A DNA stretch of 54,796 nucleotides from positions 1-54,796 of the forward strand of contig JASEGS010000001.1 in the NCBI GenBank assembly GCA_030017995.1. The letters run 5' to 3'. Positions 2,501 to 13,432 of this stretch are shown one piece after another. A program made the position numbers and the translations under genes. Below the pieces are notes generated by a model. It did no database searches and was not told where the DNA came from. It was given only the letters and a program-made list of their open reading frames with translations. How positions within the stretch are numbered: position 1 is the first letter of the stretch; the number at the start of each line of letters is the position of its first letter. This DNA is from Thermodesulfovibrionales bacterium (lineage in GTDB: Bacteria; Nitrospirota; Thermodesulfovibrionia; Thermodesulfovibrionales; Dissulfurispiraceae).

Positions 2501-4597
2501 TTATATGCCAAAAATTATCTCTCTCTCCTCCATATCCACTCTGTCAATACGCACACTCAACTCATCTCCTATACTAAATATTTTTTTCTTATGAATGCCG
2601 CGCAAACGCATATTGCCCTCATCATACTGATAAAAGTCATCTGTCATAAAGGATACATGAAGAAAACCTTCCACATAATAATCTTTTAGCCTTATCTTCA
2701 AACCATAAGGCGTAATAGAAACAACCTTTCCTCTGAATTCCTCCCCGATTTTATCCTTCATAAACCACGCTCTCATTGCATCCAAAACCTCCCTTTCTGC
2801 TTCATCAGCCTGCCTTTCCATACGCGATGAATGAAAGGCTATGCCAGGCAGAATTGATTCGAGCTCTTTAAGTCTTTTATCGCTCAAATGTTTTTTTGCA
2901 AGAGTCTCTCTCAATATCCTATGAACTATTAGATCGGGATATCTCCTTATGGGCGATGTAAAATGAGAATACGACTCCGATGCGAGCCCAAAATGTCCGA
3001 CATTCACCGCTGAATACCTCGCCTGCTTCAGGCTCCTTAATATCATATGGTTTATTATCTCCTCTTCAGGAGCGCCCTGAATCTGTTTCAAAAGAGATGG
3101 AAAGTCCTTTGGCTTTATTCCCTTTCTGTTTTTGAGGACGCCGAGCGAGGTTATAATTTTCATCATGTCCTCAAGCTTTAGAGGGTCAGGCTCTTCATGT
3201 ATCCGGTAAAGATTCGGAATTCCCAAGCCTTCGAGATGTTCCGCAATCGCTTCATTCGCAGCGATCATGAACTCCTCTATGATCATATGGGCAAAATTCC
3301 TCTCTGCCCTTATGATGTCCTCAGGGTTGCCTTGAATATCAAGAAGCACCTCCGGCTCCGGCAGATCAAAGTCGAGACTGCCTCTTTTGATTCTCCATGA
3401 TTTCAGAATATTGCACAACTCTCCCATCGTCTCAAAATCATGCAGGAGGTAATCATATTTTTTTCTTTCGTGCCGGTCTTCATCAACGACTACTTTTTTA
3501 ACAGATGTATAAGTCATACGCTCGTTGCTATTGATTATGCTCGGATAAAACTTCGCGTCGAGCCTGTCGCCATGCTTGCTGAAATCCATCTCAACAGTAA
3601 ATGCGAGCCTGTCAACCTTTGGTTTTAGGCTGCATAAGTCCTCGGAAAGCTCTTTGGGGAGCATCGGGATAACCCTGTCAGGGAAATAAACGCTTGTGCC
3701 TCTTTTGCGAGCCTCGATATCAAGAAGCGAATCCTCTTTCACATAAAATCCGACATCCGCGATATGAACCCAGAGCTTATAGCCTTCATCGGTCTTTTTG
3801 ATTGATATGGCATCATCAAAGTCCTTTGCCCTTTCTCCATCAATCGTTACTGTCGGCAAAACACAAAGGTCTTTTCTTTTATGATTCTTAGCTTCGATTC
3901 CCTCTGCATAGAGCGTCTTAGCCTCTTCTATAACATCGTGAGGAAATCTTCGCGGAAGATTGAATTCATCAATAATTCCTTCGACCTCATCCAGAGGGCT
4001 TTCAGGCTTCTTTAAAATCTTGACAATTTTGCCTGATGGAGGACTTTTATCTGCGGGATAGCTGATTATCTCCGCGATAACGCTGTCCCCATCCTTTGCC
4101 TTATTCGTCTCCTTATGCGAGATATAAAGATCAAAGGGAATAGCCCTGTTTTTAGGCCTGACATAAAAACCCGCTCTTCCAGCCTCGAATGTTCCGGCTA
4201 TTCTCGTATGCGCCCTTTGCAGTATCCTGATTATACTTCCTTCTCTTCTGTGTTTATTCTCTATCCTTGCTATTACCCTGTCATTGTCCATTGCGCCGAG
4301 GGTCGCGCGCGCCGGGATGAATATATCCCTCTCACCGGGCTTTTCTAAAATCACAAATCCATAGCCGTCTCTATGAGCTTCGAAATAGCCGGTTATAAGG
4401 CTCATCTCTTCCGAAGTGCCGTAAAGTCCTTTTCGTGTCCTTATAACTGAGCCTTCATCAACCAACTCTCTCAGCAGTTTCTTCATCTTTCGCCTTTCGG
4501 ATAAAGCGAGATTCAATCTGTCAGAAATATCGCGGAAGCTAATCGGCTGGCTGACCTTTTGTTTAAAAAATGATAGGAGGAATTCTTTTGTAATCAT
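2501..4597 (-). CDS. rnr: ribonuclease R
   Basis: The 698-aa protein has the full RNase R architecture: N-terminal winged-helix segment (1-60), two cold-shock OB domains (about 65-200), the RNB catalytic domain (about 240-570) and a C-terminal S1 domain (about 615-698). The catalytic acidic cluster is seen as GERAKDFDDAISI (Asp259, Asp261, Asp262). The enzyme degrades structured RNA 3' to 5' and processively, and takes part in rRNA quality control and mRNA turnover. It lacks the long lysine-rich tail of the E. coli protein. It starts five bases after the cytochrome stop codon and precedes the TPR gene, so the three form one minus-strand operon. Confidence 0.97.
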   Translation of the reverse strand: MITKEFLLSFFKQKVSQPISFRDISDRLNLALSERRKMKKLLRELVDEGSVIRTRKGLYGTSEEMSLITGYFEAHRDGYGFVILEKPGERDIFIPARATLGAMDNDRVIARIENKHRREGSIIRILQRAHTRIAGTFEAGRAGFYVRPKNRAIPFDLYISHKETNKAKDGDSVIAEIISYPADKSPPSGKIVKILKKPESPLDEVEGIIDEFNLPRRFPHDVIEEAKTLYAEGIEAKNHKRKDLCVLPTVTIDGERAKDFDDAISIKKTDEGYKLWVHIADVGFYVKEDSLLDIEARKRGTSVYFPDRVIPMLPKELSEDLCSLKPKVDRLAFTVEMDFSKHGDRLDAKFYPSIINSNERMTYTSVKKVVVDEDRHERKKYDYLLHDFETMGELCNILKSWRIKRGSLDFDLPEPEVLLDIQGNPEDIIRAERNFAHMIIEEFMIAANEAIAEHLEGLGIPNLYRIHEEPDPLKLEDMMKIITSLGVLKNRKGIKPKDFPSLLKQIQGAPEEEIINHMILRSLKQARYSAVNVGHFGLASESYSHFTSPIRRYPDLIVHRILRETLAKKHLSDKRLKELESILPGIAFHSSRMERQADEAEREVLDAMRAWFMKDKIGEEFRGKVVSITPYGLKIRLKDYYVEGFLHVSFMTDDFYQYDEGNMRLRGIHKKKIFSIGDELSVRIDRVDMEEREIIFGI

Positions 4598-4602
4598 AAG
4601 AC

Positions 4603-6519
4603 TCAGTTTTTTACTTTAAACTCATTTATTTTAGCCATTGCATCTTCCTGGTTATGCAGAATAATTCTTTTGAATTCCTTAAATCTCTTCTGTGTTTTTT
4701 TATCTTTATCCTTCACATAATTCTCAAGTATTTTGAGTTTATTGTCAGTCAGCCTTGAAAGAGAAAAATATTTGCTATATCTCTCTTTATTTGTTTTAAT
4801 CGAAAAATCGCCCGGAACCTGCCATTTATCCTTAAAGAAAAGCCATGATGCAAAGTCTTCCAGCTTATAACCTTCTGCAACCTTAATTGATGTTGCGCTT
4901 TTCATATCAGCAATCCTTAACCCATTTTTATCAGCCACAATCTTATATCCTCCTTTGAATGCTTCCCTTGCCCCCTGATCATCCATATATTCCCATGTTG
5001 AAACAGTTATCTGTTTCTCACCGTGGCAGCTATCGCATTTCCTCGCCTTACCATAAGGGTGCGCAGCCTGCTGTATTTCAAGCCAGAGCAGGTGTTTGTT
5101 GTTGGCAAGCGCATTGAAAGTCCCGACTACATAATACGCATCCCTTGTCTCTCCACTTGGCCATCTGAACATTACTCTTTCTGAAGGCTTCACATCAGGC
5201 TTTATATTGCCTACGCTATGAGGCCATATCTTCACAGGCATCCACCTGCCTTTCTGATCTTTCATTAATACAGGTGGACTCTGGATACCATAATAAAGGG
5301 AATATTTTTTAAACGGATTTTTCTCTCCTCCAATTATGCCAGGCCCCCATATTGTAATCTGGTACCCCCTCAATTCACTTATATGGCATGTAGCGCAATC
5401 AAGATTTTTATGAATACTCTTTGAGTGCGCTTCCTCTATCTCTATATGACAGTCCTGACAATTAGCCTTTCTCTGCATATCGCCCATACCCTTTTCGCCG
5501 GTGGTATGGCAGTCGATACAATGTATATTCTTCAGATAATGAACATCCGGCTTCATTCCTGTTGGAATGGAGTAATCGCCCCCTATATAGGTTTCCCCCC
5601 TCCTGCTCTGCATAGCGCCGGGATGACAAATGCTCGTTCCCCTTCCATAACCGGCGCAACTCAAAGAACTTGGTTTATTGGTAAAATTGTGAACGCCCTT
5701 TTTCTTATCAGGTTCATAGTGGCAGTCAAGACAGCCGGCATGACATACATTGCAGAATTTCTGTTTGACAACTGCCTGTTCTCTGGAAAACGGGGCGTTG
5801 ACTTCCCTCAAAATATCTTCCGTATTCTTGAATGAGAACCCTGCGCTTTTTAATACCTCCGACGGAGGCATATCCGCAAAGGACGGTCCTCAGTTCTGAG
5901 GGCCATAAGGCTCAAGCCACGTTCGCATGGTGCGTTGTCTGAAATTAGTCGCCATTATAGTGGTATTGAACTGTTTCAGTTCTTCAGGATGGCATTCTGC
6001 TTTTCCGCATGTCTTTTTAGCGATATCAGGGTCAAAGTTAAATGTCTCTATATTCCTGTCATGCCAGAGCACATTACGCACTTCGGGATGGGGCTCCAAT
6101 GCACCATTTCCTTTTATCTTTGGCAGCATCTCTCTTATCTTATCGTCTCCTGAGGGCAGCAAGGCATAGGGATATATATTTTTTCTGTTTAGCATCTGGC
6201 CATTATGCCCAACGAGCAAAACCCTGAGCATTCCTTTATGAGCCTTATCAGGATCATTTGACCTGCCGTTACCTAAATGGCATTCATGACATTTCACATT
6301 AGGATGCTTAGCTTCATTTTCAATCATCTCCTGAGTTACATAAAATTGCGGATAGTTCAATTTGGCCATTTTTTCTTTATCGGAGTGACACTTTAAGCAC
6401 TCAACACTGGAATTTCTCCATGCCTGATACCCCAAAAGAGTAATGACCAATATAAGCTGGATTAAAAAGATAACAACCGTCTTTTTATTGATATAATTGC
6501 TTATAGTTCCGACCTTCAT
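4603..6519 (-). CDS. multihaem c-type cytochrome, probably selenocysteine-containing (UGA at 5890-5892 read through)
   Basis: Read through one in-frame UGA (codon 210) this is a 638-aa periplasmic cytochrome. An N-terminal membrane segment (about residues 14-33) is followed by eight canonical CXXCH haem sites (starting at residues 41, 77, 256, 263, 334, 354, 375 and 495), a CX4CH motif (171-177) and a Cys-X9-Cys-His segment (288-299). Support for recoding: both halves are in the same frame; the downstream half has six haem sites but no signal peptide; its first ATG (5871) has no Shine-Dalgarno sequence; and a SECIS-like hairpin follows the UGA. Alternatives are a nonsense mutation, an assembly error, or two proteins. 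No close family name is assigned; electron transfer in the periplasm or outer membrane is the inferred role. It heads an operon with rnr. Confidence 0.75.
5853..5892 (-). promoter_or_regulatory. candidate bacterial SECIS element after in-frame UGA
   Basis: On the minus strand the UGA (5892-5890) is followed after 18 bases by an 8-bp stem (5871-5864 with 5860-5853, one G-U pair) closed by a GUC triloop (5863-5861). Bacterial SECIS elements are expected within about 16-37 bases of the UGA with a short stable stem and a G at the start of the apical loop. This hairpin meets all three. The stem also spans the codons for MPPSEV, so coding and structure overlap. Not verified by folding software. Confidence 0.65.
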
Positions 6520-6623
6520 TGTCTAATCAATCCGAAAGAAATTATTACTGGTTGCATTTTATACAGCAAGACATCCTTAAAGCAAGGTTCAAACTATCTT
6601 TACGTATATGTGCCAAATTGAAA

Positions 6624-7439
6624 CTAATAGGAAGGCTGCACAGCTACTTTTAAGGACTCATCAATAGCCGGAAGGTTAAGTCTTAAGACTTGACCGCTGC
6701 TGCCAACGTTTTCAATCTCTTTACCGTCATATATCAGTTTGATTCCTCCGGCATTACCGATCAATATATTAAAAGATTCACTGGCAGAATAAATTGCACT
6801 CTCACCCTTCTTTAACAGCGCCTCCTTTTTATCAGTGCCGTCTATGATTACCTGCAGCCACACCTTATCTGTGGCCACCACATCAAGCCTATGCTTCTTG
6901 TTCATAACCATATCCGGTGCCTGAGACGTACCATTTGAGACAGCCTGCTCAACTGTTATACCCTTATTTTCAATAGAACTATCAGGAAGTATGTTTTTGT
7001 CTGTTTTCTGAACATTAGAGATTGGAGGGATCGGTTCAGGCATCTTCGCAACAGGAACTGGATGCCTTTGCTGAGAAACCGCTAAATAAACAGCGAAAAC
7101 CAGAAAAACAGGAGCAAGCCAGACAACCCTTTTCAAATGCTTGCGAGGAAAACTCAATGATGATTGTATATCTTCCGGTTTTGAATCTAAATTTCTCTCG
7201 TTCCCCTCCTCCTTTGCTAAGAGATATTTTTCATACTCAGAAAGCGCCTGTTCATGAGGAATTCCGAGAAATTTAGCGCATGTAATTATATAACCCCTTG
7301 CATATACCTCTGCGGGAAGTTTTGAAAAATCTTCTGCCTCTATCGCCTTCAGATAATACTTGTTGATACATGTCTGCGCGGCAATATCTTCTATTGCCCA
7401 GCCAAGCTCTTCCCTGCGTTTCTTAATCAGCCCCCCCAT
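6624..7439 (-). CDS. RodZ-like protein: N-terminal helix-turn-helix, one membrane span, C-terminal DUF4115
   Basis: Starting at ATG 7439 (MGGLIKKRREELG) the protein is 271 aa. It has an N-terminal HTH_25 domain (about 1-70, LKAIEAEDFSKLPAEVYARGYI), a single transmembrane segment (VVWLAPVFLVFAVYLAV, about 105-121), a Pro-rich linker and a C-terminal DUF4115 domain (VWLQVIIDGTDKKEALLKKGES onward in family terms). RodZ proteins anchor MreB filaments in rod-shaped cells; short HTH_25/DUF4115 proteins outside that context are only RodZ-like. A longer frame to 7565 would overlap fabF and has no typical residues, so I reject it. It is divergent from fabF across a shared control region. Confidence 0.8.
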   Translation of the reverse strand: MGGLIKKRREELGWAIEDIAAQTCINKYYLKAIEAEDFSKLPAEVYARGYIITCAKFLGIPHEQALSEYEKYLLAKEEGNERNLDSKPEDIQSSLSFPRKHLKRVVWLAPVFLVFAVYLAVSQQRHPVPVAKMPEPIPPISNVQKTDKNILPDSSIENKGITVEQAVSNGTSQAPDMVMNKKHRLDVVATDKVWLQVIIDGTDKKEALLKKGESAIYSASESFNILIGNAGGIKLIYDGKEIENVGSSGQVLRLNLPAIDESLKVAVQPSY

Positions 7440-11096: not shown

Positions 11097-12055
11097 AGCC
11101 ACCGATGTATCCTGTACCAGTCTGCTGTCCATCTTGTTCCTTCCTTTATCTTTACTTTTGGTTTAAATTTCAAGACCGATACCGCCTTAGCCACATCGCA
11201 AATCCAGTAAGAATGTCTCATCTCCTTTATCTTATCCGGATTGATTATATTCACACCCCTCGTCTTTTCAGATATAAATCCCAGAAGCGGCATAATAAAT
11301 CTGGGCATACTCAGCTTCAACGGCTTTTTTTGCACAGCATCGGATACGGCGTCAATAATATCATCGCTCGAATAAATATTGCCATCTGACATAAAAAAAA
11401 TCTCTCCCTCTGCCTCTGTGTTCAAAGTAGAAAGTATTATACCATTTATCAAGTCTTCTATATAGATAAATGAATAGTAACATCTGCCCCAATACGGGAC
11501 GATTCCAGTCCTGATCATTTTAAAGAAAACGAGTAAATCCTTATCTCGCGGGCCATAAACTGCAGGAGGCCTTATAATTGTTGAAGGCAAATCTTTGCTG
11601 TGCGCTAAAACTATTTTTTCCCCTTCCAGCTTCGTTTTACCATACACAGATACGGGCCTCATTTTGCAATCCTCTCCAAGCGGCCTTTCATCACAGCTTG
11701 GCCCCGCAGCAGCGAGACTGCTCAGATAAACAAACCTCCGTATGCGGGGGTTATTGTCAAGTACCGCTCTAACTATATTCTCTGTCCCTTTTACATTAGC
11801 ATTAAAATAATCTTCCTCAGAGCATGCCTTTGTAAGTCCGGCGAGATGAAACACGTAATCAATATTTTTTACAGCTTCGTTCAGTGATTGCCTGTCTGTA
11901 CAATCTCCGTGTATTAATCTGACATTAAGTCCCTCAATGAATCTCAGATTTGATGTTTTTCTTACAAGGCAATAAACATCAAACCCATTTCTCAAAAGGG
12001 CATCAGTGAGATGGCTTCCAATGAAGCCAGTTGCGCCTGTAACCAATGCTTTCAT
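11093..12055 (-). CDS. NAD-dependent epimerase/dehydratase (extended SDR), candidate ceramide reductase (CerR)
   Basis: The 320-aa extended short-chain dehydrogenase has the nucleotide motif [11 protein letters not shown] (residues 6-16), a downstream Asp-rich segment (HGDCTD), the catalytic YGKTK (Tyr138, Lys142) and the substrate-side [10 protein letters not shown]. It is the first gene of the set SDR - SPT - acyltransferase. In Caulobacter an extended SDR reduces the keto group during sphingolipid synthesis, and I infer the same here. ATG 12055 is chosen over a TTG nine bases upstream because it gives the usual [10 protein letters not shown] start. A sugar-nucleotide epimerase is the fallback reading. 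Confidence 0.7.
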
Positions 12056-12130
12056 AAATTGCAAACTACGAATAATGAATTACGGATTTGAAGAATTTTA
12101 ATTTATTCAGCAGAAATAATTCCACAATTG

Positions 12131-13432
12131 TTAACTCTTGATTTTCTTAACCCTGATCTTTAATCCCTTTACATCCTCAACAACTACTTTATCATCTTTC
12201 CCGATAACTTCATCTGAATATGCAGACCAGTATTCACCATGAACAATAACCATCCCTCTGTCAGGAGTAATCTCTGTCTTAGCAATACCTTCAAGACCAA
12301 CAAGACCCTCTGCGCCTGTGACAGGTTTTCTTTTGTATGCCTTGTAAGCAAGCCTGAATGTAAGCACGAAAAAGAGGGCAGTCACAATAGCAGCAGGAAG
12401 GATAACAGACAGGGACACTTTCAAAAAAGGCAGAGACGACTCAAAGAGCATTAACGAACCGAGAACCAATGATATTATGCCGCCAACAGTTAACATCCCA
12501 TAAGATGTGACCTTTACTTCGAGGATAAAAAGAATGAGCCCGATTACAATAAGCAGAAGTCCGGCATAATTAACCGGCAGTGTCTGAAATGAGTAAAAAG
12601 CAAGGACAAGGCATATACCGCCGATTACTCCAGGGAATATTGCACCGGGATTTGTCAATTCAAAAAACAGGCCGTAAAAACCTAAGAGCATAAGCAAGTA
12701 GGCGACATTTGGATCGCTGATTAAATTCAAAATCTTGTGTCTCAATCCAATCTCGTGCCTGATGAGCTTTGCATTGGCTATCTTCAGCGTTTTTTCTCCA
12801 TAAGAAATTTTTACCTTTCTGCCGTCTATTTCCTGAAAAAGCGCCGTCAAATCTTTCGCAACGAGGTCTATAATATTATTTTTCAGCGCCTCAGACTCTG
12901 TCGCTGAAACGCTTTTTCGCACAGCATCCTCAGCCCATTTTACATTCCTGCCCCTCATCTCTGCAATCGACTTTATATATGCCGCAGTGTCATTCGTGAC
13001 CTTTTCTGCAATAACCTTATCCATTTTCTCACCAACTGCAACAGGATGTGCAGCGCCTATATTTGTTCCCGGAGCCATTGCAGCTACATGGGCAGCCATG
13101 GTTACAAAAACCCCTGCTGATGCTGCCCTGGCGCCTGATGGAGAGACATATACAATAACAGGAACGCTGCTTCCGATAATGTCCTTCACAATGCTTCTCA
13201 TAGATGTATCGAGACCGCCCGGTGTATCCAGTTCGATAATTAATGCCTCTGCATTCATCTCAGACGCCTTTTTTATTGATTTGCCTATATACTCAGCAGC
13301 AATCGGATTTATAACACCGTTCACTGTAATGACCATGACCTCAGGCTTTTTGCTTTCCACAGACGATGAAGATGTGAGATATAAGAATATAGAGAATACT
13401 GCAACCGCGAGAAATACGAATCTCTTACTCAT
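12131..13432 (-). CDS. nfeD: NfeD-type membrane serine protease (ClpP-class, full-length)
   Basis: The 433-aa protein has a signal peptide (1-26), a ClpP/SppA-like protease domain (about 30-230; ELDTPGGLDTSMR and SGARAASAGVFV with the nucleophile Ser), four or five membrane segments (about 240-365) and a C-terminal NfeD OB domain (about 375-433). This is the long NfeD form, which cleaves hydrophobic peptides and usually acts with a stomatin/SPFH partner. No stomatin gene is adjacent here. The stop is 75 bases upstream of the SDR start, so the gene may share a transcript with the sphingolipid-like set. Confidence 0.92.
   Translation of the reverse strand: MSKRFVFLAVAVFSIFLYLTSSSSVESKKPEVMVITVNGVINPIAAEYIGKSIKKASEMNAEALIIELDTPGGLDTSMRSIVKDIIGSSVPVIVYVSPSGARAASAGVFVTMAAHVAAMAPGTNIGAAHPVAVGEKMDKVIAEKVTNDTAAYIKSIAEMRGRNVKWAEDAVRKSVSATESEALKNNIIDLVAKDLTALFQEIDGRKVKISYGEKTLKIANAKLIRHEIGLRHKILNLISDPNVAYLLMLLGFYGLFFELTNPGAIFPGVIGGICLVLAFYSFQTLPVNYAGLLLIVIGLILFILEVKVTSYGMLTVGGIISLVLGSLMLFESSLPFLKVSLSVILPAAIVTALFFVLTFRLAYKAYKRKPVTGAEGLVGLEGIAKTEITPDRGMVIVHGEYWSAYSDEVIGKDDKVVVEDVKGLKIRVKKIKS

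Follow-up and report, generated by a model that had tools for sequence, protein, structure and literature searches.

Two selenocysteine (Sec)-containing cytochromes are included in a 2026 review of 119 selenoprotein families, namely ExtKL and an octahaem tetrathionate reductase-type protein (PMC13188914). ExtKL (NCBIfam NF040886; Geobacter gsu2937-2936) is a Sec-containing multihaem c-type cytochrome (PMC5877670, PMC13188914), and genes for a Rieske protein (ExtO) and a cytochrome b (ExtP) belong to the same ext cluster. The selenoprotein form of octahaem tetrathionate reductase (TIGR04315) is a multihaem c-type cytochrome with a single Sec (PMC13188914, Table 1). ExtN, ExtO, and ExtP of the selenite/tellurite ext cluster likewise combine a multihaem cytochrome with a Rieske protein and cytochrome b; ExtN is not among the selenoproteins listed in the review (PMC13188914). 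The b6f/bc1-type quinol oxidases share Rieske, PF00033 cytochrome b, and PF00032 subunit IV-like genes with the system described here, but their c-type partner is cytochrome f or c1, whereas here it would be a ten-haem Cys/Sec cytochrome.

The window (the whole stretch of 54,796 nucleotides of Thermodesulfovibrionales DNA that was analyzed) carries a gene in which an initial annotation had proposed a Sec residue in a multihaem cytochrome (Table 1). The proposal began from two minus-strand frames parted by one UGA, and the open reading frames (ORFs) 6519-5890 (209 amino acids) and 5871-4603 (422 amino acids) do share a frame, with UGA 5892-5890 as the sole interruption. Read-through yields a 638-residue product with Sec as residue 210, the position originally suggested, in the motif GPQN-U-GPSFAD between haem motifs 3 and 4. 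Standard ORF calling cuts the gene into two ORFs, and its own terminator is also UGA (4605-4603). UGA 5892-5890 very probably encodes Sec, as judged from homologues, a downstream hairpin, and the gene content of the host.

Table 1. Predicted features of the Sec-containing cytochrome gene, in window coordinates
Feature	Position	Strand	Remarks
Sec-containing multihaem c-type cytochrome, complete gene	4603..6519	-	638 residues; full-length homologues, 43-77% identity across the UGA
N-terminal membrane anchor or uncleaved signal, residues 12-35	6415..6486	-	Hydrophobic; single long helix in AF2 model
Haem motif 1, CXXCH (41-45)	6385..6399	-	
Haem motif 2, CXXCH (77-81)	6277..6291	-	
Haem motif 3, CX4CH (171-177)	5989..6009	-	Invariant, 91/91
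UGA codon 210, read as selenocysteine	5890..5892	-	Opposite Cys or UGA in 91/91 distinct homologues
Bacterial SECIS hairpin	5853..5871	-	Stem AUGCCUCC/GGAGGUAU, 5871-5864 with 5860-5853; loop GUC, 5863-5861
Haem motif 4, CXXCH (256-260)	5740..5754	-	
Haem motif 5, CXXCH (263-267)	5719..5733	-	
Putative haem motif 6, CX9CH (288-299)	5623..5658	-	C, C, and H invariant, 91/91; atypical spacing
Haem motif 7, CXXCH (334-338)	5506..5520	-	
Haem motif 8, CXXCH (354-358)	5446..5460	-	
Haem motif 9, CXXCH (375-379)	5383..5397	-	
Haem motif 10, CXXCH (495-499)	5023..5037	-	

The window protein resembles ExtKL in being a predicted Sec-containing multihaem c-type cytochrome, and a UGA homologue of ExtKL is found in the same host genome. 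Unlike the window protein, ExtKL has 5 haems in about 430 amino acids and places Sec after the haems, in AGHxIPDG-U-PTPNR. The window protein gave no match to the ExtKL model NF040886 (cut-off, 250 bits) and none to TIGR04315 at an E value of ≤1, and profile comparison of the window family with ExtKL by hhalign (probability of 11% over 27 columns) indicated no relation. Since both known models failed, the Sec motif is different, and no profile relation to ExtKL was found, the window cytochrome is a new predicted selenoprotein family, separate from ExtKL. The Sec-containing cytochrome of Geobacter to which the initial annotation referred therefore exists, as ExtKL (PMC5877670), but the window protein is not an extension of that family. 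Similarity to the ExtN model (NF040967) is confined to the haem core at residues 240 to 380 and scores 33.6 bits, below the cut-off of 200. The other papers found in the open-licence literature contain no description of the window cytochrome. The analysis thus adds a selenoprotein family that is split in two by standard ORF calling and is found in two families of the phylum.

A search of the sequence collection returned 34 loci, 33 of them full-length or nearly full-length relatives, and many further relatives were present among 396 sampled genomes of the phylum. Removal of duplicates left 91 distinct sequences (69 family members and 22 more distant paralogues) for comparison at codon 210. The residue opposite the UGA, singled out in the initial annotation as a check on Sec, was never an unrelated one: the codon is TGC or TGT in 77 sequences, TGA in 14, and no other in any. 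The TGA members are the window gene, its nearest relatives L015 and L016, and 11 sequences of a distant family (L088 to L097 and L099); within the phylum, UGA cytochromes occur in two separate families. The maximum-likelihood tree needs four Cys/Sec label changes, three of which are forced by well-supported branches; with at least three changes forced, Cys and Sec appear to have been exchanged repeatedly. Cys is the norm in the family and the host assembly is a draft of 55 contigs, as would suit a sequencing or assembly error that turned UGC or UGU into UGA, which the initial annotation had named as a refutation. Such an error is nevertheless extremely unlikely, since 13 more sequences, from other genomes, have the UGA and a SECIS-like hairpin accompanies UGA but is mostly missing with Cys.

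Both halves of the gene are under constraint, with divergence biased to third codon positions, and purifying selection, as read from these substitutions, acts on both. This argues against UGA as a true stop, with the gene a decaying pseudogene or the halves separate proteins, as does the fact that 13 other sequences, drawn from two families, have UGA at this codon too. Furthermore, the C-terminal half carries haem sites yet lacks an export signal, as was originally pointed out, and its ATG lies within the hairpin. The 5' arm of the SECIS opens with ATG 5871, so that the “start” of the downstream ORF merely marks where the hairpin begins. A true stop is very improbable on these grounds, even though the gene is divided by standard ORF calling and a strong ribosome-binding site is missing upstream. 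The lack of a ribosome-binding site at ATG 5871, offered in the initial annotation in support of read-through, was observed but is not evidence, as the start at 6519 is likewise without a clear one.

The 8-bp stem with a GUC triloop reported 18 bases past the UGA was also found. The hairpin AUGCCUCC-GUC-GGAGGUAU includes one G.U pair, has a small apical loop with a G, the form expected of a bacterial SECIS, at 26 nucleotides, and is unexpected among 1,000 synonymous recodings of the same peptide (P = 0.002). The corresponding probabilities are 0.001 to 0.002 for the three members closest to the window and 0.015 to 0.18 for intact hairpins of the distant family, the hairpin of L091 not being beyond synonymous chance (P = 0.18). 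A SECIS-like hairpin at one fixed distance is shared by the Sec members, in all 14 of which the apical loop starts 26 nucleotides after the UGA. Ten of these stems are perfect and four (L089, L092, L097, and L099) are the same stem with one mismatch, read from the sequences, as the strict scan had scored no hairpin or another one. Stems near the window (CCUCC-GUC-GGAGG, extended to 8 bp) and in the distant family (CCCUGCC-GGUC-GGCAGGG) differ in sequence but have the same loop distance, and compensatory changes are seen in L091 (CCCAGCC/GGCUGGG) and L095 (CCCUUCC/GGAAGGG). Cys homologues are mostly without the hairpin, and the mean hairpin energy is -9.0 kcal/mol in the Sec set versus -1.6 kcal/mol in Cys members, a comparison that is indicative only, as the sequences are related. 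In L101, the distant family's only Cys member, the hairpin is lost.

L065, a Cys relative of L015 and L016, has retained a hairpin of 8 bp (GUGCUUCC-GGC-GGAAGUGC) precisely where the SECIS would lie. This is probably a relic of a Sec ancestor, and SECIS-like relics in Cys forms are a known pattern (PMC1794560). The natural pairing of Cys and Sec forms at a single invariant site, with at least one Cys form retaining such a SECIS-like relic, would allow a direct experiment on the benefit of selenium in a haem protein.

The Sec machinery sought as a further check is complete in the host genome, which has genes for SelA, SelB, and SelD and a tRNA-Sec with anticodon UCA. SelB and Sec-tRNA(Sec) would decode UGA 5892-5890, directed by the SECIS hairpin 26 nucleotides downstream. 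Among 13 scanned genomes with a UGA cytochrome, selA was found in 12, and tRNA-Sec is present in the thirteenth (G084; 74% complete). Several host genes contain an in-frame UGA, as might also be expected if UGA were read as a different amino acid, whether because the code had changed or by plain read-through. However, UGA terminates 14 of 40 long window ORFs, as well as the cytochrome gene itself, and the code is therefore not reassigned. The remaining in-frame UGAs seen are in at least three other host selenoproteins (SelD, within SSCAG-U-ASKF; ExtKL; and YeeE), each at a known Sec position, and this, together with the complete machinery, makes insertion of another amino acid highly improbable. 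Loss of the machinery was considered for G041, which has the one Cys member of the Sec-rich family and in which selA was not found, but was dropped, as tRNA-Sec and two UGA ExtKL genes are present.

The ExtKL homologue of the host (L146, G000:C18, 7175-8362, minus strand), a second Sec multihaem cytochrome in this genome, has its UGA after RIPDG and lies near an operon for a molybdopterin oxidoreductase, an FeS protein, and an NrfD-like protein (3396-7117). On the same contig, a YeeE/YedE-type transporter (about 11400-12402, minus strand) has its UGA at AGG-U-TVGHALTG. In another genome (L148, G294:C99, 21763-25007), a 36% paralogue of the window protein directly adjoins an ExtKL gene.

Upstream of residue 210 lie two CXXCH motifs and one CX4CH; downstream of it are six CXXCH and one CX9CH. 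The initial annotation had named the six downstream CXXCH and the CX4CH but missed CX9CH (residues 288 to 299). The ten motifs are essentially invariant in the 69 family members and the 22 more distant paralogues and would provide for ten putative haems (eight CXXCH, CX4CH, and CX9CH); the unusual CX9CH could be something else. The product would be a periplasmic cytochrome c, anchored in the membrane, with about ten haems and Sec at residue 210. The AF2 model has a pLDDT of 80 and is poor at residues 295 to 319 and 339 to 356, where several haems would sit. A PDB sequence search gave NrfA/NrfH-like haem-motif similarity only (E values of 5e-4 to 2e-3) and a fold search with the cytochrome gave nothing significant, so no structural assignment is made.

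Residue 210 is the sole invariant Cys position outside C-Xn-CH motifs and forms no UxxC or CxxU pair. Besides the ten proximal His residues, eight other columns are invariantly His or Met (72, 94, 189, 277, 327, 345, 370, and 487), and in two of these His and Met interchange, as is usual for ligands. Eight such columns for ten haems leave two haems without a fixed His/Met ligand, and by this column arithmetic H153 (conserved at 88%) and Cys/Sec210 are the obvious candidate ligands. Sec/Cys210 may tentatively be placed at a haem, as a sixth ligand or beside an open site, where the selenium of Sec210 could tune the potential or exchange with a sulphur- or selenium-type substrate. If residue 210 binds haem, this would be, to our knowledge, the first natural selenolate-ligated haem.

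A genuine Sec could instead serve in thiol/selenol chemistry at a distance from the haems, such as the formation of a selenenylsulphide with C288 in a protein of nine haems, which bears on the location of the residue at a haem and not on the presence of Sec. The unusual spacing of CX9CH and the invariance of C288 would fit such chemistry, as would the occurrence of Sec in thiol redox motifs in most selenoproteins (PMC13188914). All invariant Cys residues except 210 fit a C-Xn-CH motif, however, UxxC and CxxU are absent, and the AF2 model is weak at residues 295 to 356, where the geometry is not fixed; this alternative is doubtful. The most specific form of the haem-site reading, in which Sec210 is an axial c-haem ligand within a quinol-oxidizing Rieske/cytochrome b complex and lineages switch between sulphur and selenium, is unlikely as a whole. 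At residue 208, His is found in 46 of 55 Cys members and in none of the 14 Sec members, which have Gln or Asn. A His208 that activates a thiol and is superfluous for a selenol would fit this pattern, which is confounded by descent.

The neighbours of the gene in near relatives of the host are housekeeping genes (those for RNase R, a RodZ-like protein, and FabF) and are uninformative on cytochrome function. No relative of the Sec cytochrome was found in the plasmids searched. Elsewhere in the family (L021, L031, L037, and L041), the cytochrome gene adjoins genes for a Rieske protein and cytochrome b, and in G334, G286, G362, and G211 the cytochrome b gene is on the same strand, ~34 bp from the cytochrome gene. 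We know of no other Sec-cytochrome with Cys relatives encoded in a Rieske/cytochrome b operon.

The linked cytochrome b type scores 241 bits against ExtP, below the cut-off of 290. Among the 396 genomes, 82 have both this type and the cytochrome, 8 have only the cytochrome, and 3 have only the cytochrome b type, i.e., it is present in 82 of 90 genomes with the cytochrome versus 3 of 306 without, at a score cut chosen after the data were seen and with a count inflated and confounded by shared descent; gene linkage is independent support. In the host, the Rieske, cytochrome b, and subunit IV-like trio (Pfam matches to Rieske, PF00033, and PF00032) is on a different contig from the cytochrome gene, and partnership there is thus proposed by homology only. 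The host cytochrome b is nearest to ExtP, again below the cut-off of that model. The cytochrome is probably the c-type electron-accepting subunit of, or a partner to, a b6f-like Rieske/cytochrome b/subunit IV complex, from which it would pass quinol electrons outward. One of the operon-encoded members (L041, 2472-4373) comes from a metagenome-assembled genome labelled Desulfobacteraceae and is nested among Nitrospirota, owing to either transfer or mis-binning.
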